DNA of 64,000 bases from Halomonas sp. GTDB taxonomy: Bacteria > Pseudomonadota > Gammaproteobacteria > Pseudomonadales > Halomonadaceae. Shown here piece by piece: positions 5,203 through 50,517 of this stretch. The stretch spans positions 62,001-126,000 of the forward strand of contig NZ_JAFWFN010000005.1 in NCBI RefSeq assembly GCF_017515565.1, read 5' to 3'. The notes beneath the pieces are model-generated. The model saw nothing but the letters and a program-made list of their open reading frames with translations, did not search any database and was not told the DNA's origin. Every line of letters starts with the position of its first letter. Position 1 is the stretch's first letter. Made by a program: the position numbers and the translations under genes.

Positions 5203-5232
5203 AAAAAATGCCGCCTAGAGGCGACATTTTTA
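5203..5232. terminator. Bidirectional hairpin terminator
   Basis: A stem with CGCC / GGCG at its tip, flanked by complementary A- and T-runs, sits just after the stop of the leftward TAXI receptor gene (5243). Read on the minus strand it ends in a T-run, so it should terminate the transporter transcript before the acyl-CoA operon promoter region at 5046-5200. Confidence 0.7.
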
Positions 5233-5242
5233 GAAGGGTTTT

Positions 5243-6387
5243 TTAAAATACGGGATTCATGCTGGCTTCTTCCAACGCCGCGCGACGCGCTGTCATCCAT
5301 CCCGCTATAAAGGCTTCTTCATCTTCCGGGGCATCTGCTTTGTAGCTTTCCCAGGTATCCATCAGTAGTGCTTGGCGCTCAACCAATGCGTTTTGATGCT
5401 CTTCCATTGCATCTGTCCAGACGCCAGTGTCTCGATAATAATCAACAACCGCATCGTGAAAAGGTACCACCCAGGTCATGTTTTGATTCTCCAGCGCATA
5501 GCCGCTAGCACCCGGGGCGTTGTCTTTATAGTCATCAAATGATTCAGTCAGCGTGGTGATTAACCCGCGCGCAGTTTCTGGGGCAAGGTCGGCATTGCTG
5601 ACCATAATGGGGTAAGGGTAGCTTGCGCTGGCGAGTGGGGCATCGGCATCAATACCAGCCCCTGCGGTAACGTCGTGGGGCTGAAAGTAGGGTGCGACGT
5701 CGAGCATGCGCTCCCAGCCGTCTTCATCTTCAGTGGGTAATGTAGGCCACTGTAATCCACGAGGGCTGGCAGAAAGACGTTGGGCAGCTGGCGTGACGGT
5801 GGTGGTGATAGCAGCATCGGCTCGACCGCTGATTATGCCATCAAAGGCTGCGTTGTAGCCGGGGAAGTCAACGCGTTCAACGTCATCCCACGTCAGTCCG
5901 GCAAATGCTAAATAAGCCTCTGCAGCTTTGTTGAGTGCATCGTCGCCTAGCAGGTAGGCCAGACGTTTACCCTCAAGGTCAGCGATTGAATCAATCTCAA
6001 CGTCACCTGCCACAGCCATACCTAAGCCAAAAGTGGCTATGGAAGTGGAAATAACGCGAATGGGCTGCGGGCCCCAGTCGGGGCCAGCAAACATCATAAC
6101 GCCTTCAGAACCGTAGTAGCTGGCAATGCCGCAGGCGCAAAGGTCAACCCGGCCTGTTTTTAAAGGCGTCATGCGCATTGTGTCGTTCTCGCCAGGAATA
6201 ACGCGAGATTGGGTGCCGTACTCTTCCTGCAGTAGCTGACTGATGGCCATGATTTGCGCGTGACCACTGGTTCCGGTGCCGTAGGCAGTCCAGTTAAGCG
6301 CATTAGGCATAGCAACCGCTTGGCCCGCGAAAAAATACCAATCGTCAGTCCGCTTAATTTAAATGCGAATTTTGTTTTTGTGTGCAT
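5243..6387 (-). pseudogene. TAXI-family TRAP solute receptor, frameshifted in its signal peptide
   Basis: Periplasmic solute-binding protein of a TAXI-type TRAP transporter. The mature part (about 355 residues from MPNALNWTAYGTGTSGHAQ, frame open to 6310) closely matches the paralogue at 8511-9671 along its whole length, including VDLCACGIASYYG and PYFQPHDVTAGAG. The expected export signal is present but in another frame: MHTKTKFAFKLSGLTIG starts at ATG 6387 behind AAGGAA, and FFAGQAVA continues it in the receptor frame. The two join if the T-run at 6330-6335 (minus strand) had seven instead of six T. As written the protein cannot be exported; a sequencing error, a recent mutation or phase variation are all possible. 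It lies 36 bases after the permease gene and was clearly its receptor. Confidence 0.8.
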
Positions 6388-6422: not shown

Positions 6423-8420
6423 CTAGCCGTATGCGCGGTGATGATGGCGCTGGCTTAAGCGGGCTAGTAGCACGCCAGGAATTAGCGCTGCGACGGCCAT
6501 GCCAAGCAGTTCAAGCTGGCTTAGCGGCACCATGCCTCCGCCGGGCAGGGCCAGCAGCAGGCCCGCGATTAAGATCAGGCCGCGGATGATGGTCTCTTGT
6601 AGTACGCCATAGCCGAGACGGCCGATCCCAATCAGATAACCCTGCATCGCTGATGCAAATAGAATGATGCCAATCACCGCTTGGATAAACACGGCCACTA
6701 TCGTCAACGGCTCGCCCTGCATAATCAGCGCGGGATTAAGGACAAACAGGAAAGGGATAAAGTAAATCACGCTGCCTAAGCGCATGGCCTGTAGGCCGGT
6801 TGCCATTGGCCGGGCGCCGGCAACGGTCGCTGCGGCAAAGGCACCCAGTGCTACGGGTGGCGTAATAAAACTCAACATGCCCCAATAGAGGATGAACATG
6901 TGTACCGCCATGGGATCAAGGCCTCCGCCTTGAATGAGTGCAGGGGCTAGCGCCACCGCCAGGAAGATATAGGCCGCGGTAACCGTCATTCCAATACCTA
7001 GCACGAAGCTGGTTACGGCACCCATGATCAGCAGAAGTGGCACGCTGCCACCGGCGATATTGATAAAGTCGTTGGCAATAGTGCCGGAAAGGCCGGTCAT
7101 GGAAAGCGCGCCCACCAGCATGCCTACACCCGCCAAAATGGCAATTAGCTCAGCAAACAGCTTGGCGGCAGACGACAACGTATCGCCAACATCCTTCCAG
7201 CCCCAGCGGTTATGTTTAGAGAGCTGGTTGAGCACCAGTAGTAGCGCTGTCGCGTAAAAGGGGGCAACGGCTTCTCGTTGCATCACCAGTAACATCCACA
7301 CCAAGAGCGCAAAAACGAAGATAAAGTACCAGCCCTCTTTTAGGGTTTGCCACAGCGAGGGCAGCTCAACTACAGGTAAGCCTTTAATATCGTTACGCGC
7401 CGCGTAAGCATCGATCTGTATAAATAACCCCAAAAAATAGAGTACCGAAGGAATAACTGCAGCAAGAGCAATGGTGGAGTAAGGAATATCCAAAAACATC
7501 GCCATCACAAAAGCGGTGGCACCCATAACGGGTGGCATTAAGACACCGCCGGTAGAGGCGCAGGCTTCTACACCCCCAGCAAAAGAGCGGGTCATGCCAA
7601 TGCGTCGCATAGCCGGAATCGACAAAACACCGGTAGTCAGCACGTTGCTGATCACACTGCCGCTCATTGAGCCCATTAAGCCACTTGAGAAAATCGATAC
7701 TTTGGCAGGGCCACCGCGGACATGTCCTAATAGTGCAAAGGCCAGGTTAATAAAAAATTTACCGCCACCGCTTTTCTGCAGCACCACGCCAAATACCAGA
7801 AAGCCGATCACTAGGCCCGCAAATGCTTGCAGCGGTACGCCCATGATGCTTTCAGTGCTCATGGTGTGGTACATGGCGGTTTGTTCAAGGGTCGATGGAA
7901 ACGCTTGAATTGGGCCGGGGACAATATCGGCCACCAATGGGTAGAGTGAGAACAACCCGGCAATAATGGCGATAGGTAAGCCACCTGCACGTCGAGCTGC
8001 TTCAATAATCAGCAGCCAATAGGCGTAGCTGGCGTAGATAGCGAGGTCAGGTGCAGCAAACGCCCAACCGCGTTCTAAAATAGGTACCGCGTTATAAACA
8101 AAATAGCCGCCGACAGTGAGCGTTATGGCGCTAAGTAAGTAGTCGTACCAGGGAATAGGGCGATCTTGTAGGCTGCTGCGCATAGGCCATAGCAAAAAAA
8201 CCAGCGGCAGAAGCAAGGCAACGACAGCGTAATAGAACTGAGTCTCCAGGCCCGTCACAAAAGTAAGCCAGCCGATATTGAATAAGTAGTCCAGCGTCAT
8301 CAGCATTAAAACGACGGTGACGGTGGCTGGAATCCAGCGTATCGCCGACGGAAGCTGACGAATTTGGCTGATCTTTTCTTTCACTTGTTGAGTAGAGGCA
8401 GGCGCGGTATTTGTGGTCAT
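6423..8420 (-). CDS. TRAP transporter fused permease (4TM/12TM, TAXI type)
   Basis: A 665-residue, very hydrophobic inner-membrane protein with the small DctQ-like and large DctM-like subunits fused, the normal form in TAXI TRAP systems. It should drive sodium- or proton-coupled uptake of a carboxylate-like substrate handed over by the periplasmic receptor. The DctM hallmark region is seen in SGSVISNVLTTGVLSIPAM and EACASTGGVLMPPVMGATAF. It is flanked on both sides by receptor paralogues on the same strand, an arrangement that suggests receptor duplication around a single permease. The ATG at 8420 overlaps, as ATGA, a seven-codon upstream frame produced by a short tandem duplication (8412-8443); no strong ribosome site is visible. 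Substrate unknown. Confidence 0.9.
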   Translation of the reverse strand: MTTNTAPASTQQVKEKISQIRQLPSAIRWIPATVTVVLMLMTLDYLFNIGWLTFVTGLETQFYYAVVALLLPLVFLLWPMRSSLQDRPIPWYDYLLSAITLTVGGYFVYNAVPILERGWAFAAPDLAIYASYAYWLLIIEAARRAGGLPIAIIAGLFSLYPLVADIVPGPIQAFPSTLEQTAMYHTMSTESIMGVPLQAFAGLVIGFLVFGVVLQKSGGGKFFINLAFALLGHVRGGPAKVSIFSSGLMGSMSGSVISNVLTTGVLSIPAMRRIGMTRSFAGGVEACASTGGVLMPPVMGATAFVMAMFLDIPYSTIALAAVIPSVLYFLGLFIQIDAYAARNDIKGLPVVELPSLWQTLKEGWYFIFVFALLVWMLLVMQREAVAPFYATALLLVLNQLSKHNRWGWKDVGDTLSSAAKLFAELIAILAGVGMLVGALSMTGLSGTIANDFINIAGGSVPLLLIMGAVTSFVLGIGMTVTAAYIFLAVALAPALIQGGGLDPMAVHMFILYWGMLSFITPPVALGAFAAATVAGARPMATGLQAMRLGSVIYFIPFLFVLNPALIMQGEPLTIVAVFIQAVIGIILFASAMQGYLIGIGRLGYGVLQETIIRGLILIAGLLLALPGGGMVPLSQLELLGMAVAALIPGVLLARLSQRHHHRAYG

Positions 8421-39302: not shown

Positions 39303-39592
39303 TGAACATCTCCAGCCATTTTGTGTGCGTCACCAATGTGCTTAAACGGTTTTGCTAATGGCGAACATTTCGCTAGCTCGATGTAGCGGTTGCGCTCTTC
39401 CAGCTCCAGGCGTTCTCGAACGGCATCACTAACACTGCCGCGCTTCTGATTGGCTACAAGCTGCATTCCACGCTTGCCTGCCAAGTAGCGGCTATACACG
39501 GTGCCTTTCGGTAGCTGGTAACGTTGAGCTAGTCTCACCAGTTGTATTTGCTCACCGGTGTTGGGGTCTGTAGTCATAATGGGTTCATGCAT
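39299..39592 (-). CDS. Small phage protein, HTH-like
   Basis: A 97-residue protein. VRLAQRYQLPKGTVYSRYLA (about residues 18-37) has helix-turn-helix spacing and may bind DNA; the rest is charged and helical (SVSDAVRERLELEERNRYIE). It overlaps the end of rdgC by 8 bases and lies in the tightly packed leftward operon. No known family recognised. Confidence 0.65.
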   Translation of the reverse strand: MHEPIMTTDPNTGEQIQLVRLAQRYQLPKGTVYSRYLAGKRGMQLVANQKRGSVSDAVRERLELEERNRYIELAKCSPLAKPFKHIGDAHKMAGDVQ

Positions 39593-40529
39593 TGCCGTTG
39601 CCCTCGCTATTGCGCTTGGCTTCGCCGCCTAGCCATTCAATGATTCGTTCCACGCTGTCGCGCAGACTGCCTGCCATGAGCACGAAGTCGGTTTCCAGGC
39701 GGGCTAGGGCGTCGTCGCCATCGTCGGTGGCGTCGGCTTCTTCGATGAGGGCGTCACCGAAGCGAATGGATTTAAGCGCGAGATCGTCATGCAGGGTGAA
39801 GGAGAGTTGGCCTTCAATGTTTAGCGCTAACTGAGTAGCCTGGCGCCCGCTTTCAAGCAGCTGCTGCATTTCATCGCTGTCGAGGTCTACTTGACGCCCA
39901 CGCAGTACGCCATCATCGCCCTTGGCTTTCAGCACCACGCTATCGCCTATTTGCAGGTCGGCAGGGCGGCTGACTGTGTTGCCTAGCCATGTGGTCATGG
40001 CTCTTACGGGCAACGTTTGGGTAGCTAACGGCGTTACTTTTAGGCTACCCAAAGTTTCGCGTAGCAGATCCAGCACGTCTTCAGCGCGTGAGCGGCTGCT
40101 AGTGTTTACGCCGATCAGGTTGCGCTCAGTGTCCCACCAGAGGTCTATTTTCTGGCTGCGCACGAAGGCGCGGGGCAGTAGCTCTTCGGTGACCTGTTCC
40201 TTGAGCGCGGTTTTCTCTTTCCGCGTTACCTTGCGGGCCTCGGTGGCTTCGATCTCGGCTACCTTGTCGACCACTTCCTCAGCCACGACGGAGGCGGGTA
40301 GCAGTCGCTCTTGCCGGAGGGCGCTTATCAGGCGGTGGCCATCGTTCTGCAGAGTGTGTAGCAGTTGGCCACCACCCAGGCGACCTGCTGGCGCTGACCA
40401 GCCAATACGGCGGGCGTCGGCATTACCCAGCGGCTTACTGGCATGCTCGGCTAATAGCTCTGCTGTTTGCTCAGGGCTGAGTAGCTGCATGCCATGAAGG
40501 CGGTAGAGGTGTAGGTGTTTGAACCACAT
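39585..40529 (-). CDS. rdgC: Phage-encoded RdgC recombination-associated protein
   Basis: A 314-residue RdgC homologue, a ring-forming nonspecific DNA-binding protein that limits RecA loading. MWFKHLHLYRL at the start, RIGWSAPAGRLGGGQLLHTL, RQERLLPASVVAEEVVDKVA and the segment IDLWWDTERNLIGVNTSSRS are typical; length equals chromosomal RdgC (about 303). Being inside the PL operon it is phage cargo, perhaps to steer recombination of replicating phage DNA or to compete with host RecA during induction. Coupled by TAATG to a 28-codon frame upstream. Confidence 0.9.
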   Translation of the reverse strand: MWFKHLHLYRLHGMQLLSPEQTAELLAEHASKPLGNADARRIGWSAPAGRLGGGQLLHTLQNDGHRLISALRQERLLPASVVAEEVVDKVAEIEATEARKVTRKEKTALKEQVTEELLPRAFVRSQKIDLWWDTERNLIGVNTSSRSRAEDVLDLLRETLGSLKVTPLATQTLPVRAMTTWLGNTVSRPADLQIGDSVVLKAKGDDGVLRGRQVDLDSDEMQQLLESGRQATQLALNIEGQLSFTLHDDLALKSIRFGDALIEEADATDDGDDALARLETDFVLMAGSLRDSVERIIEWLGGEAKRNSEGNGNA

Positions 40530-41882: not shown

Positions 41883-42154
41883 TGGGCACCTCCTTTGTTT
41901 TGGTAGGCGCGCAATTCACCCACCATTTGCTCCAAGCCGTTCAAGGCGCGCTCAGGCGTGGTGAGGGGCGGCAGCGAGGTGGAAAATAGCGTCTCTTCGT
42001 CGTCGTCATGCGCATCTTTCACCGACACGCCGCCGGGGGCGATGACCATGACGGCACAGCGCTGCTGCAGCACTTGCATATCCAGCACCATGTCGGCGAG
42101 GTCATGAACGCGGTTTCTCACTAGCTGTGCGGTGGTTTTTTCTACGATGCTCAT
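41879..42154 (-). CDS. Small phage protein, unknown
   Basis: A 91-residue acidic protein (VRNRVHDLADMVLDMQVLQQ; ALNGLEQMVGELRAYQNKGG), mostly helical, with no recognised domain. Coupled by four-base overlaps to both neighbours, which supports it as a real gene. Confidence 0.6.
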   Translation of the reverse strand: MSIVEKTTAQLVRNRVHDLADMVLDMQVLQQRCAVMVIAPGGVSVKDAHDDDEETLFSTSLPPLTTPERALNGLEQMVGELRAYQNKGGAQ

Positions 42155-42537
42155 GCGTACACACTCCCCGTATCGCGGCGTGCCACGGTGCGGCTGGCAC
42201 TGACCTGCTGGCGCGTTCGTACAGGTGGCCGGTGACGCATGGCTTCGGTTTCGGGATTGAGGCCGCTGACCATGAGCGCGACCAGTAGCGGGGCAATCCA
42301 GCCGCGGCGCATGGCTTCAGCTACGGCGCCAGCGGCTTTGTAAACGTGGAGCTTGTGATACGCTTTTTTAAGGCTGCCGTGCACGGTTTCCGGTGAGCGA
42401 CCGGTGGCCTTGGCAATCTCTTTGTAGGTGTTGCCAGCCGCCAGTAGCATGAGATCCACCGCTTGTGTGCGGGTGAGACCTAAGCTGCCTCGCTCTGGGT
42501 TTATTTCTGCCTTCCAGTTGCCTTGTGTGATTTGCAT
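42151..42537 (-). CDS. LuxR-type HTH protein, first gene of the PL operon
   Basis: A 128-residue protein. LTRTQAVDLMLLAAGNTYKE then IAKATGRSPETVHGSLKKAY (about residues 20-60) is a GerE/LuxR DNA-binding helix-turn-helix without a receiver or autoinducer domain. Being the first gene after PL, it occupies the position of lambda N; a regulatory role in early expression is an inference. The basic C-terminal tail (RHRPPVRTRQQVSASRTVAR) might bind RNA or DNA. Confidence 0.7.
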   Translation of the reverse strand: MQITQGNWKAEINPERGSLGLTRTQAVDLMLLAAGNTYKEIAKATGRSPETVHGSLKKAYHKLHVYKAAGAVAEAMRRGWIAPLLVALMVSGLNPETEAMRHRPPVRTRQQVSASRTVARRDTGSVYA

Positions 42538-42570: not shown

Positions 42571-42599
42571 AATATAGGCAAACACATAATATAGGTCAA
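42571..42599 (-). promoter_or_regulatory. Leftward early promoter PL
   Basis: On the minus strand TTGACC (42599-42594), a 17-base spacer and TATATT (42576-42571) form a strong sigma-70 promoter 34 bases before the first leftward gene. Both hexamers are overlapped by CI-type operators, so it should be silent in the lysogen. Confidence 0.75.
42574..42587. promoter_or_regulatory. Operator OL (a), over the PL -10
   Basis: ATAGG CAAA CACAT, matching the ATAGGnnnnCCYAT pattern at all but one position of the right half. It covers part of the -10 and spacer of PL. Confidence 0.6.
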
Positions 42600-42612
42600 T
42601 AGGTATTCCTAT
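42599..42612. promoter_or_regulatory. Operator OL (b), beside the PL -35
   Basis: ATAGG TATT CCTAT, a perfect 5-bp palindrome with a 4-bp spacer, touching the -35 of PL. Its centre is 25 bp from the other OL site, similar to the spacing of the three sites at the cI/cro region. Confidence 0.7.
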
Positions 42613-42629
42613 ATTTTGAATATAAGCAC

Positions 42630-42651
42630 AAAAAACCGCCTCGATGGGCGG
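42630..42651 (-). terminator. Terminator of the cI / Rex-like operon
   Basis: ccgcc (42636-42640) pairs with ggcgg (42647-42651); on the minus strand a run of six T follows. It stands between the end of the lysogeny operon (42676) and PL, insulating PL from read-through. Confidence 0.85.
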
Positions 42652-42675
42652 CGTTTCACGATGAGAAAGAGAGGA

Positions 42676-43344
42676 CTACTGCTCTAGGGTATTTGAAGCC
42701 TCTGACTTTTTCATGCCTGTTAGGAGAGCTACTTGCTGGTCAGGTGGCTTATCTGCGTTGGCTTGATTTCCGCTAGGTGGGCGATGAATTCGGTATGAAA
42801 GGTAATAAAGCCCTAACATTGTTACAACAAATAGATGAGCAGAGGCTACTGAGTACAGCGCCACAAATAGTGCCCGGAGCCAGTAGGCCGCTTGGGCTGA
42901 AACCATTTCTGAAACGCCACTACTGATCAGGTTGGCGAAACCGCCTGTAAAATAAAGACAAATTGATAATAAGGCCAAGTGGCCAAAAAGAAAGCAAAGA
43001 AAGGCCCGTCTTTTCAAGCTGACGGGCTTTTTCTCGCCTCTGCGTGTTTCATTCAAGATTGCAGGTGAGCCATCAAGCGGTTGCTCTAATGTTTCGCTTG
43101 GAAATGTCGCTACCGCAGCTAATGCAGCAATATAAAAACCGGTCAGCATCTGCAAAAGGCCGGTGATCAAGCTCACGTAACCTTTGTCACCGAAAACAGG
43201 CGCATGTGGTCCAAGGGCAATTAGCACTCCAGCGACGCTCAATCCAAGAATCAAGGGAATTACAAAATCAATTTGATATTTAACCTTATTTTTGATTCTT
43301 AGGTATCTGAACGGCGTTAGAAGTTGTTTTATTTGAGTACGCAT
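42676..43344 (-). CDS. Four-helix membrane protein, RexB-like position
   Basis: A 222-residue membrane protein with helices around residues 28-45, 57-80, 112-132 and 155-185 (FVIPLILGLSVAGVLIALG; FLCFLFGHLALLSICLYFTG; LFVALYSVASAHLFVVTMLG). It is the third gene of the cI operon, directly after a 316-residue soluble protein, the same order and topology as lambda cI-rexA-rexB, where RexB is a four-helix ion channel. No sequence similarity to RexB is claimed. Base composition is lower in GC than the flanking phage genes, suggesting separate acquisition. Expressed in the lysogen if driven by PRM. Confidence 0.75.
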   Translation of the reverse strand: MRTQIKQLLTPFRYLRIKNKVKYQIDFVIPLILGLSVAGVLIALGPHAPVFGDKGYVSLITGLLQMLTGFYIAALAAVATFPSETLEQPLDGSPAILNETRRGEKKPVSLKRRAFLCFLFGHLALLSICLYFTGGFANLISSGVSEMVSAQAAYWLRALFVALYSVASAHLFVVTMLGLYYLSYRIHRPPSGNQANADKPPDQQVALLTGMKKSEASNTLEQ

Positions 43345-43363
43345 GGCCTCTCAACTATTCCAG

Positions 43364-44314
43364 CTACTGGTTGAGTAGCGAGAGCATTTTTCCTGCAAAT
43401 GTTTGGTTAACCTCTGGCGCGCACTGATCAAGATTTACATCTACAGAAATTAGCTCATCCTTTAACACCAAAACATCTCGAAGATCTTCTTCTGAAGTAC
43501 CCATTATAACTGACTTCTGACGGCCCTCTTTCTTTTTATACCTAACACGCAACTCATCATAGCCGTTGTTCTTACCCCAAAGCCTTAGACCCAATAACTC
43601 GCCATCACCGATGTTCCATTTGGAATGACCTGGGCTTAGGCGAACTTTCATCACCTGAGACTCTTCATAAAAATAGCCTTCTTCATCGAGAGACTCAGCA
43701 TTTTGGACTCTTTTAATGAGTTCCACGCCTGCTAGCTGTCCTTTCTCTAGCTCGTCGACAAAAGATTTCGATGGGGTCCCTAGCAGCTCAGTCGAAGGAC
43801 GATAGGGCTTCAAGGCGCCTGCTGATTCGTCATGGTACTCAAAGAGACCCTCAGCGGCATCTTTGATCTGTTTTTTCAAGAAAGGGTCTACGTTGCTGCG
43901 ACCAAGTCCAGGGACAACCTCAAGCAAAAATGGGTAAGTGTCTGGCTTTCCCTCTATAGGGGTAAGACCGATAACGGCATGCGCTGAAACTGCAACTCCT
44001 TCGCCTTGGAGTTTGGGTTCATGCCTTAGCTCTCCAGTTTGCAAGTCAGCAAAGACAGGGTCTGTCGCGTCTTGATCAGCGTATTGAAACAGCAAGACTA
44101 GGGCTTCAGGGTGCCCTTTTTGGCGATTCTGGGAGTAGTCCGTGATCCTATAAGCTGAACGCTCGTTATTTCTAAGCTGAAAGGCCTCACCATCATTAAT
44201 AATTCTTTCTAAATGTGGAATGATATCTTTGAGCAATATAGTTGGCGCGTCAGCTGGATCAGATTTCAACACTAGCTCATGAAATTGTACCCAGCGCTCC
44301 CTGATATGCAGCAT
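43364..44314 (-). CDS. Soluble lysogeny protein, RexA-like position
   Basis: A 316-residue soluble protein of unknown family encoded between cI and a four-helix membrane protein. Segments include LLKDIIPHLERIINDGEAFQ, YPFLLEVVPGLGRSNVDPFL and ELRVRYKKKEGRQKSVIMGT, a mixed alpha/beta character with a Lys/Arg-rich patch near residue 270. Size and context match lambda RexA (279), the cytoplasmic sensor of the Rex exclusion system. ATG 44314 is used because GAGG lies at normal distance; the ATG at 44320 touches it. GC is lower than in surrounding genes. Function as an exclusion factor is an inference. Confidence 0.75.
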   Translation of the reverse strand: MLHIRERWVQFHELVLKSDPADAPTILLKDIIPHLERIINDGEAFQLRNNERSAYRITDYSQNRQKGHPEALVLLFQYADQDATDPVFADLQTGELRHEPKLQGEGVAVSAHAVIGLTPIEGKPDTYPFLLEVVPGLGRSNVDPFLKKQIKDAAEGLFEYHDESAGALKPYRPSTELLGTPSKSFVDELEKGQLAGVELIKRVQNAESLDEEGYFYEESQVMKVRLSPGHSKWNIGDGELLGLRLWGKNNGYDELRVRYKKKEGRQKSVIMGTSEEDLRDVLVLKDELISVDVNLDQCAPEVNQTFAGKMLSLLNQ

Positions 44315-44345
44315 ACCCATCCCTCATAAATTTTTGATTTTTATA

Positions 44346-45014
44346 CTAAAGCTTAGTCTTAGCCTCCACCGCCACGCCCAGTATCCGGCAATTTCCGTTG
44401 ATCGGTATGAGGGGATACGCAGGGTTGAGTGGTTTTAAATATTTCTGTCCACTTTCAACGATATATTTCTTAAACGTAGCTTCGTTGCTTTCGTCTAGCT
44501 GGGCTACCACCAGTTTTCCTGGCGTCGCTTCAATGCCGGTATCCACCAGTACCAGCGTTCCCTCTGGAATGCTGGGCCTTACGCCTGCTGGTGCGGTCAT
44601 TGAGTCGCCAGCCACTTCCAACCAAAAGGCTGGCCCTTTGGCACTGTAGTCTGTGGTTTCGTGCTGTTCTTCCATGCCTGCAGGATATGGCACTACACAC
44701 TCTGCAAACTTGCCTGCCTGAACGCTAGAAATCACAGGGTAGCGATAGTAGCGCAGCGGTGTGGGTGCTATAGACACGTTGTTATTAGTGGCAGAGCTTA
44801 CTGCGCCTGCAACCATTTCGCCTTTGCCAGTAGCAAGCCATAAGGCGCTCACTCCTAGCTCATGAGCAATCTGGGTAGAGAATGATGTTGACTTAGATTT
44901 GCCGCGCTCTAAATCCGAGATGCTAGTTTGTTGCACGCCAATTTTTTTGGCGAGCTCTGCTTGATTAAGGCCAGCCAACTTCCTGGCTTTTTTAAGGCGG
45001 TCTTTGAATTCCAT
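44346..45014 (-). CDS. CI-type repressor (XRE HTH + S24 peptidase)
   Basis: A 222-residue phage repressor. Residues 1-65 form the HTH (LAGLNQAELAKKIGVQQTSI, SDLERGKSKS); the C-terminal half is a LexA/CI-like S24 self-cleaving domain with the cleavage pair Ala100-Gly101 in SSVQAGKF, Ser138 in EVAGDSMTAP and the Lys of EATFKKYIV as general base. RecA-stimulated cleavage would induce the prophage. It should bind the ATAGGnnnnCCYAT operators at PL and PR. The predicted PRM start falls at or next to the ATG and no ribosome site is present, so its mRNA is probably leaderless, as for lambda cI. Confidence 0.92.
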   Translation of the reverse strand: MEFKDRLKKARKLAGLNQAELAKKIGVQQTSISDLERGKSKSTSFSTQIAHELGVSALWLATGKGEMVAGAVSSATNNNVSIAPTPLRYYRYPVISSVQAGKFAECVVPYPAGMEEQHETTDYSAKGPAFWLEVAGDSMTAPAGVRPSIPEGTLVLVDTGIEATPGKLVVAQLDESNEATFKKYIVESGQKYLKPLNPAYPLIPINGNCRILGVAVEAKTKL

Positions 45015-45020
45015 AATCAA

Positions 45021-45049
45021 TTTATATAGGCGAACCCATATGCTTGCAA
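45021..45049 (-). promoter_or_regulatory. PRM, promoter of the repressor operon
   Basis: On the minus strand TTGCAA (45049-45044), 17 bases, then TATAAA (45026-45021). The start point would be around 45014, the A of the repressor ATG. The -35 hexamer is a palindrome shared with PR. Confidence 0.65.
45026..45039. promoter_or_regulatory. Operator at PRM
   Basis: ATAGG CGAA CCCAT, matching ATAGGnnnnCCYAT. It overlaps the PRM spacer and the edge of its -10, the place where binding would shut off repressor synthesis (OR3-like). Confidence 0.7.
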
Positions 45050-45072
45050 ACGGGTATTCCTATACTTATTAT
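45044..45072 (+). promoter_or_regulatory. PR, rightward early promoter
   Basis: TTGCAA (45044-45049), a 17-base spacer and TATTAT (45067-45072) precede cro. Operators lie in the spacer (45050-45063) and just downstream of the -10 (45073-45086). Confidence 0.75.
45050..45063. promoter_or_regulatory. Operator in the PR spacer
   Basis: ACGGG TATT CCTAT, a diverged left half with a perfect right half, centred 24 bp from the PRM site. Binding would block PR (OR2-like). Confidence 0.65.
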
Positions 45073-45086
45073 ATGGGAATGCCTAT
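45073..45086. promoter_or_regulatory. Operator downstream of the PR -10
   Basis: ATGGG AATG CCTAT, the inverted form of the same palindrome, centred 23 bp from the middle site. Covers the PR start region (OR1-like). Confidence 0.7.
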
Positions 45087-45102
45087 TAAGGAGCACGCAA
45101 AG

Positions 45103-45339
45103 ATGAGTCAAACCTCTACCTTCCAAAGACTGGTGGGTTTCTTCGGCAATCAAATAAAAACAGCAGAACTGCTGAAAGTTGACCAAGCAACTGTTTCAGG
45201 GTGGGTGCGTGGAAAGCATGGCATGTCTCCTGCTGTTGCGCTGCGAGCGGAAAAGTTAACGAACGGCAAGTTTACTGCCGCCCAGCTGTGCCCTTCGGTT
45301 TTTGTTCAGCCGCCTGCTGAAAAGGTGGCGTCTCAATGA
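45103..45339 (+). CDS. Cro-like protein
   Basis: A 78-residue HTH protein, first gene of PR. LVGFFGNQIKTAELLKVDQA then TVSGWVRGKHGMSPAVALRA (about residues 8-47) is the YdaS/Cro-type fold. It is divergent from the repressor and should act at the same operators to favour lytic growth. ATG 45103 follows AAGGAG at nine bases; the ATG at 45079 lies within an operator and lacks a ribosome site. Confidence 0.85.
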   Translation: MSQTSTFQRLVGFFGNQIKTAELLKVDQATVSGWVRGKHGMSPAVALRAEKLTNGKFTAAQLCPSVFVQPPAEKVASQ

Positions 45340-49584: not shown

Positions 49585-50517
49585 TTAGCCATCTTTAGAG
49601 GAGGTGGCTATTGCCATATTTTGTCTGTGTGGTTTGGGTAGGTAAATGTCGTGACCACAAGCGCACACTCTCCTCTTAAAAAAGCTTTCAAACATACCTA
49701 CGTCAAACCTCCTTAATATTCTTATTTTTTTTGTATATATTATAACTGACTTATCGTAACCAACTTGCCCATCAGAATTTTCGGTACCATTATTCAAAAA
49801 GGGGAAAAATGCATCAGAGTAGTCTGTTGTGATGTGAAGTTGTTGGAATTCCTTACAAAGCGAACCACTCATTATAGGTAGTATTGAAATAGCTCGCTCA
49901 CTTGTTGCTTGTGCCGGGTCTGGTAGCTCAAGAACAAAACCAATAAAGACCTTGCCATTGTCATCGCAAGTCATTATTGCACCTTCATCATCAAGCATCG
50001 CATCCAGTAAGAGTTCGTCAACTGGATTGCGGTCTAAACTCGCTCTTTCAACCCATTGTGTATATTTCCAGCCTGTATATTGTAGCAACAGCCACAAAGC
50101 CTCAGCAGTTTTTACAAAGCTGTTTATAAAACGGTTTTTAAATCTTTTTTCGAGTTGCCTGTCAATCCAAGTTGCTTCAATGGCATATGATGACCAATAT
50201 ATAGGAAGTTGTAATATAAATAATAAACTGAACGATAGGCAGAGCGCTAAAAAGCCCGACCTTGTTAGTGAGTCAATTTCATCTTGAAAAGCATTTGGTA
50301 CTAAGTTTAGGGTGTAATTAAAAAATGTGGAATCGCTAAACTTATCTTGGAGGTGGTAAGAGATTATAAAAAAGATAAGACCCCACAATGCACTTTTCAA
50401 ATATAAGTGCTGACCATTAGCTCTCGCTATTCTACCCCTGGTAAGCGTATAATTTGAAATGAAGGTGTAGCCAGCAATAAGTATTAGTACAACTAATAAA
50501 AACCTACTGCTAGCCAC
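49585..50517 (-). CDS. Membrane-anchored cargo protein (moron candidate)
   Basis: A 310-residue protein on the opposite strand to all neighbours. Three N-terminal helices (about residues 5-20, 42-57, 88-112; FLLVVLILIAGYTFISNY, ALWGLIFFIISYHL, LALCLSFSLLFILQLPIYW) are followed by a soluble domain with EGAIMTCDDNGKVFIGFVLE and MSGSLCKEFQQLHITTDYSD. The latter recalls a widespread membrane-anchored family of unknown function (DUF6338-like; tentative). A C-terminal CACGHDIYLPKPH may bind metal. The region is AT-rich. GTG start after AGGTG. Expressed with the 63-residue gene upstream. Confidence 0.75.
   Translation of the reverse strand: MASSRFLLVVLILIAGYTFISNYTLTRGRIARANGQHLYLKSALWGLIFFIISYHLQDKFSDSTFFNYTLNLVPNAFQDEIDSLTRSGFLALCLSFSLLFILQLPIYWSSYAIEATWIDRQLEKRFKNRFINSFVKTAEALWLLLQYTGWKYTQWVERASLDRNPVDELLLDAMLDDEGAIMTCDDNGKVFIGFVLELPDPAQATSERAISILPIMSGSLCKEFQQLHITTDYSDAFFPFLNNGTENSDGQVGYDKSVIIYTKKIRILRRFDVGMFESFFKRRVCACGHDIYLPKPHRQNMAIATSSKDG

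Follow-up and report, generated by a model that had tools for sequence, protein, structure and literature searches.

Our data suggest that two adjacent genes, here called A and B, in a 64,000-nucleotide stretch of Halomonas sp. DNA (the window; part of contig C73 in a 3.76-Mb assembly) quite probably encode a phage-exclusion (abortive-infection) pair of RexAB type that belongs to the RexABpp/PDC-M53 family and is expressed in the lysogen from the repressor operon. The direct basis for this reading is the gene order, an operon-like layout, homology, conserved pairing of A and B, and a membrane topology derived from sequence. The tested relative to which we link the pair is RexABpp of Pseudomonas putida, by way of a locus termed L206. 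The features of the region are as follows.

42151..42537, minus strand: LuxR/sigma-region-4-like HTH protein, first leftward gene past the OL-like cluster (PHROG 3282 'sigma factor', 4.2e-24)
42571..42599, minus strand: PL-like promoter-like sequence TTGACC-17-TATATT, which would drive the leftward genes (10/12 matches)
42574..42613, no strand assigned: OL-like operator cluster with two ATAGGMAWWCCCATA sites (motif search)
42635..42652, minus strand: intrinsic-terminator-like hairpin and T run, beginning 23 bp past B (hairpin scan)
42676..43344, minus strand: gene B, RexBpp-like four-helix membrane protein, PDC-M53B, 222 aa (PADLOC; BLASTP to L206 B)
43364..44314, minus strand: gene A, RexApp-like soluble protein, PDC-M53A, 316 aa (PADLOC; BLASTP to L206 A)
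44346..45014, minus strand: CI-like repressor with HTH_3 and Peptidase_S24 domains, heading the putative operon (ORF list, Pfam)
45026..45086, no strand assigned: OR-like operator cluster, three sites (motif search)
45052..45339, plus strand: divergent Cro/YdaS-like regulator, start codon uncertain (Pfam YdaS_toxin 1.3e-9; P22_Cro 2.8e-5, below its cut-off)

The repressor (Pfam S24, 1.5e-23; HTH_3, 7.2e-13), A and B form one minus-strand run with gaps of 31 bp between repressor and A and 19 bp between A and B. A hairpin, GCCGCCCATCGAGGCGGT followed by TTTTTG, stands after B, so that the arrangement proposed by an earlier sequence-only reading, two co-oriented genes downstream of the repressor and before a terminator, is borne out. 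A terminator scan returned 5 sites against 3.7 expected in shuffled sequence, and the weight therefore rests on the position of the hairpin and its T run. The repressor starts at an ATG at 45014 (the ORF list extends it to a TTG at 45020). An alternative ATG at 44320 would give A 318 aa; we favor the start at 44314 because GAGGG ends 6 nt 5' of it and because the A protein of a sister prophage, L002, is likewise 316 aa long. The reading had also described A as soluble, B as a four-helix membrane protein, and both genes as richer in AT than their neighbors, all of which agrees with our measurements: the highest 19-residue hydropathy in A is 1.06, with no membrane segment; B has four hydropathy peaks and four long helices in its model; and GC content is 0.461 in A and 0.453 in B versus 0.501 in the repressor and 0.54 in the window, where 3% of 1.6-kb windows are equally AT-rich. 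Compared with L002, their closest relative, A has a dN/dS of 0.032 and B of 0.084 (first 190 residues), and these low values indicate that both are maintained as proteins. Elsewhere in the window, the leftward genes of the same prophage region include an RdgC gene (39585-40529, minus strand; PF04381, E = 1.5e-86), and the most AT-rich stretch holds a 310-aa ORF (49585-50517, minus strand) with N-terminal hydrophobic segments by eye and no Pfam or PADLOC match at E ≤ 0.01, a possible cargo gene.

The interval from the repressor to the divergent Cro-like gene contains three copies of a 15-bp operator-like motif (45026-45040, 45049-45063 and 45072-45086), and two more copies lie just past the terminator (42574-42588 and 42598-42613, the second readable on both strands). 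With at most two mismatches, all matches in the 64 kb fall at these two clusters, the pattern having been drawn from the OR-like and OL-like sites themselves; with up to three mismatches, the 9 matches are not above chance (6.7 expected; at least as many in 24 of 100 shuffles). The promoter-like sequence overlaps the OL-like cluster and comes from a scan that found 3 sites versus 3.5 expected in shuffles. In L002, the pair again lies between operator clusters and ahead of a terminator, with a different operator sequence. Its own operator family has three sites ahead of the repressor and two past B and gives 10 strand-wise matches versus 1.15 expected (0 of 200 shuffles reach 10) for a pattern likewise drawn from its own sites; the clusters lie at 5226-5289 and 7706-7746 of that locus. 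L002 A is 94% identical to window A and L002 B 86% identical to window B over its first 190 residues. In the repressor, residues 1-80, its HTH half, are only 52.5% identical and the remainder 94.4%. The pair thus keeps its position while immunity specificity changes, a pattern that would fit an exchange of immunity specificity by recombination with the exclusion pair held constant. ORFs that by eye resemble the LuxR/sigma-region-4-like gene come after the pair in both L002 and L206.

Profile searches placed both proteins in one family. A matches the PADLOC PDC-M53 models PDLC04696 (1.5e-31) and PDLC04694 (1.3e-21), and B matches PDLC04699 (7e-44); window A and B thus correspond to the A and B models of PDC-M53, itself a candidate system in the PADLOC library, and a literature search for that name found none. 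PHROGs 16499 and 8257 also match the pair, neither with an assigned function. NCBIfam gave no match for either protein; Pfam gave none for A and three sub-threshold matches for B (E = 0.07 to 0.17). PDB sequences gave none for A, with a best E of 1.2 when the A family profile was used. Across PHROGs, PADLOC, NCBIfam, Pfam and PDB sequences, no homolog with an unrelated enzymatic role was found that would speak against exclusion. A PDB sequence search with B did return DASS symporters (E = 0.0053 and 0.006 over residues 107-196, plus a weak third); we rejected this match, which was gone with the B family profile (best E = 0.38, no symporter) and which we accordingly read as shared membrane composition.

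RexABpp, a name that a literature search found in one paper, is encoded by PP_5643/PP_5644 of P. putida prophage P1, and deletion of either gene sensitizes P. putida to the 7B and 9A phages (PMC12894663). Seven suppressors of RexApp toxicity are changes in RexBpp, at W25, F35, L55, T103, S145, G153 and Y181 (PMC12894663). L206 B has six of these seven residues in place at offset 0, with T at 102 and D at 103; of 858 further ORFs with lengths of 185-320 aa, none matched more than three of the seven at offset 0, and three reached four when offsets of up to 5 were allowed. L206 A (330 aa) with six His would have a mass of 37.47 kDa versus the 37.5 reported for RexApp, and it is preceded by an S24 repressor, a gene with a HIRAN domain and another small open frame, where P1 has 'two additional genes' between repressor and rexApp (PMC12894663). 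From the residues, the mass and the gene order, we infer that L206 is RexABpp. Its contig number is presumably the one under which IMG lists P. putida KT2440.

L206 A and B are strong members of PDC-M53 (E = 8.4e-157 and 2.8e-72), which would make RexABpp a PDC-M53 system; the main text of PMC12894663 mentions neither PADLOC nor PDC. BLASTP aligned window A to L206 A (E = 3e-16; 25% identity over 262 columns) and window B to L206 B (E = 2e-20; 30% over 189 columns), and the PDC-M53A models that window A matches also match RexApp. These comparisons support homology of the window pair, through L206, to a tested exclusion system. The sequence-only reading of a Rex-like exclusion module gains accordingly, exclusion by RexABpp having been shown by gene deletion in P. 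putida (PMC12894663). The two pairs share both PADLOC families, the A-B order, a position downstream of an S24 repressor, four hydrophobic peaks in B and the conserved Y181 position. They differ in that window A directly follows the repressor whereas P1 has two genes between, that window B is 222 aa with a longer C-terminal tail versus 188 aa, and that window A is acidic (pI 5.1) while RexApp is basic (9.2).

The hydropathy peaks of B lie at residues 27-45, 63-81, 114-132 and 159-177, and its structure model (pLDDT 91.1, pTM 0.81) adds short helices to the four long ones. Loops 1 and 3 contain few charged residues; seven K/R occur at the N-terminus and another seven in the central loop, the latter together with five D/E, and this distribution predicts that both termini and the central loop are cytoplasmic. 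B retains the GF[YF]IAALAA motif and the conserved C-terminal GLYYL...H of PDC-M53B. Replacement of RexBpp Y181 by H inactivates the protein (PMC12894663), and all 97 aligned B proteins, window B included, have Y or F at the equivalent position.

For A (model pLDDT 93.2, pTM 0.85), family alignment shows four near-invariant residues, R7 (87 of 95 rows), H112 (95 of 96), E132 (87 of 96) and D210 (88 of 96), which could be structural or catalytic. Basic residues occupy the columns of R258 (52 of 95), K260 (68 of 96) and their neighbor R256 (78 of 96). HHalign of the A family against a five-sequence RexA alignment pairs R258 and K260 with RexA R219 and K221, at a P of 0.012 and a probability of 3.6% that is not significant alone; single RexA sequences gave P values of 0.015 to 0.41. 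The smallest P among 60 decoys (60 of 108 A11 proteins, with lengths of 150-450, each used as a single sequence and so not matched in depth to the RexA alignment) was 0.047. In lambda RexA, the double mutation R219A/K221A abolishes DNA binding (PMC11077077). The order of helices and strands in modeled residues 172-290 looks like a ferredoxin-like C-terminal domain comparable with the RexA dimerization domain. With Foldseek, neither A nor B had a PDB match at E ≤ 1e-3, and RexA was absent among the 50 matches listed for A. Against viral models, the top four matches of A were uncharacterized phage proteins (E from 8.8e-12 to 4.5e-9), followed in fifth place by a protein of a phage named 'Recombination associated protein' (E = 1.3e-3, probability 0.95, TM 0.27), which we take to be the usual name of RdgC. 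RdgC is a structural relative of RexA (PMC11077077). The fold search against RexA/RexB that the first reading had proposed as a check thus gave no PDB match at this threshold and, for A, an RdgC-type viral model. A relationship of A to lambda RexA/RdgC is suggestive, the R258/K260 alignment and the RdgC-type fold match being leads rather than proof. The pI of window A, set against 9.2 for RexApp and 8.6 for lambda RexA, speaks against strong DNA binding by this protein, in which such binding may be weaker or absent.

The pair resembles lambda RexAB, annotated in the arrangement OR-cI-rexA-rexB-OL, in the cI-A-B order between operator clusters (the operators here being recognized by sequence only) and in joining a soluble to a four-helix protein; lambda RexA and RexB have 279 and 144 aa versus 316 and 222 here, and profile similarity to lambda RexAB is only weak. 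We rejected membership in the lambda family, since A and B matched neither the Pfam RexA/RexB models (PF15969/PF15968) at E ≤ 10 nor those of PADLOC, while lambda RexA and RexB scored 1e-97 and 8.5e-92 on their own Pfam models and also scored on their own PADLOC models. The earlier description of the pair as sequence-unrelated to RexAB therefore holds for HMMs, with a remote relation of A to RexA/RdgC hinted at. Pairs of a DUF4747 protein and a membrane-type partner (Sbash gp30/31 type, PMC6426596) are similarly organized. At six of six fetched DUF4747 loci (L196-L201), a gene with about four hydropathy peaks lies immediately downstream, and these loci are possibly a further Rex-like set. A showed no significant profile similarity to DUF4747 (HHalign probability against DUF4747 plus RexA, 1.2%). 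The B family scored 48% against DUF4747/RexB-type partners together and 5.9% and 7.3% against separate alignments, an alignment dependence for which we do not rely on this similarity. The comparison sources were PF15969, found in 1 of 369 class genomes, and PF15931, found in 6 of 398 phylum genomes. Tentatively, RexAB, DUF4747 and PDC-M53/RexABpp pairs might be branches of one large mobile superfamily, combining an RdgC-fold DNA sensor with a four-helix membrane executioner, that was acquired by viruses unrelated to each other, tailed phages as well as Vinavirales, and by plasmids, and was inserted again and again into the CI operon between the operators.

We collected relatives from species genomes (79), viral contigs (80 of 152 kept) and a Pseudomonas-focused scan (80 of 81 kept). 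A lies just upstream of B on the same strand for 234 of 243 B genes, yielding 153 non-redundant pairs, as it does for 165 of 173 in an earlier count, with pairing profiles built partly from the same loci; three of the eight B genes without A in that count start no more than 171 bases from the end of their locus. Among the named carriers are Shigella phage SfII, Salmonella phage F1055, Moraxella phage Mcat23, two Vinavirales Vibrio phages, and plasmids of Acinetobacter and Sulfitobacter; of named carriers given to PADLOC, 7 of 7 A and 3 of 3 B proteins match PDC-M53. A literature search on SfII exclusion gave nothing relevant among the matches listed. The Vinavirales (Tectiliviricetes) phages infect Vibrio cyclitrophicus (loci L010 and L011), and their possession of the pair indicates that it crosses viral realms. 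B is present in 5 of 151 genomes of the host family, host included, and in 7 of 398 genomes of the genus of genome G153, the source of Pseudomonas locus L073; four of these seven had already come up in the scan for loci, and another is weak and has internal stops.

Among the 153 pairs, an upstream ORF was called in 144 and lies on the same strand in 108. That adjacent gene matches S24 in 18 of the 108 and PHROG repressor family 4 in 22, the test covering the adjacent gene alone so that repressors further off, as in RexABpp, go uncounted; others encode antiterminator Q (4), ResIII (6) and type ISP restriction enzymes (4). The pair thus lies directly beside a repressor in part of the family, most adjacent upstream genes matching no repressor model, and co-expression with a repressor is not universal.

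By homology, A would be a two-domain sensor, probably a dimer, that binds DNA regardless of its sequence, as RexApp binds DNA non-specifically and self-associates (PMC12894663). An invading phage would activate A, probably through a replication or DNA-protein intermediate, and A would then switch on B, a predicted inner-membrane protein of four helices whose two termini and basic central loop would all face the cytoplasm. B may oligomerize and breach the membrane so that growth stops before the invader matures; RexBpp harms the membrane and stops growth (PMC12894663). RexBpp caused no depolarization by DiSC3(5) and leakage in only a subpopulation, which disfavors a simple channel model, and two-hybrid assays gave no A-B contact and rexApp in trans no complementation (PMC12894663). 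If this mechanism applies in the host, contact between A and B, pore formation, DNA binding by window A and exclusion in the lysogen would all be expected.

The position of the pair between the OR-like and OL-like clusters would also suit a role mainly in tuning the lysis-lysogeny switch, which lambda RexA biases (PMC11077077), with exclusion as a by-product. We consider this unlikely: PMC12894663 reports that RexABpp has no effect on its repressor promoter, the adjacent upstream gene mostly matches no repressor model, and the SfII, plasmid and Vinavirales copies sit elsewhere. Reversed roles are quite unlikely as well. In mycobacteriophage Butters, gp30/gp31 is the same kind of gene pair (PMC7542560), called Rex-like in the discussion of PMC12894663, and on that model cytoplasmic A would be the toxic antiviral agent that membrane protein B silences until infection; overproduced RexApp is toxic only with RexBpp present, and the toxicity suppressors hit B (PMC12894663). 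We rejected this reversal as the default reading. An unrelated two-gene membrane defense such as Kiwa (four-helix KwaA plus soluble KwaB), similar in size and topology, or a toxin-antitoxin addiction pair, is highly improbable and was rejected, as A and B matched no such model in PADLOC, NCBIfam or Pfam and instead show homology to RexABpp.

On the RexAB-type exclusion reading, the window pair is probably one more example of an already known type of phage defense. It ties the PADLOC candidate family PDC-M53, with its 153 non-redundant pairs, to a system with published activity, and it offers a likely function for pairs annotated 'hypothetical protein', such as gp50/gp49 of Shigella phage SfII. 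The window and L002, with the same pair and different immunity specificities, provide a natural comparison with which to study why an exclusion pair is retained within the immunity region of lambda-like phages.
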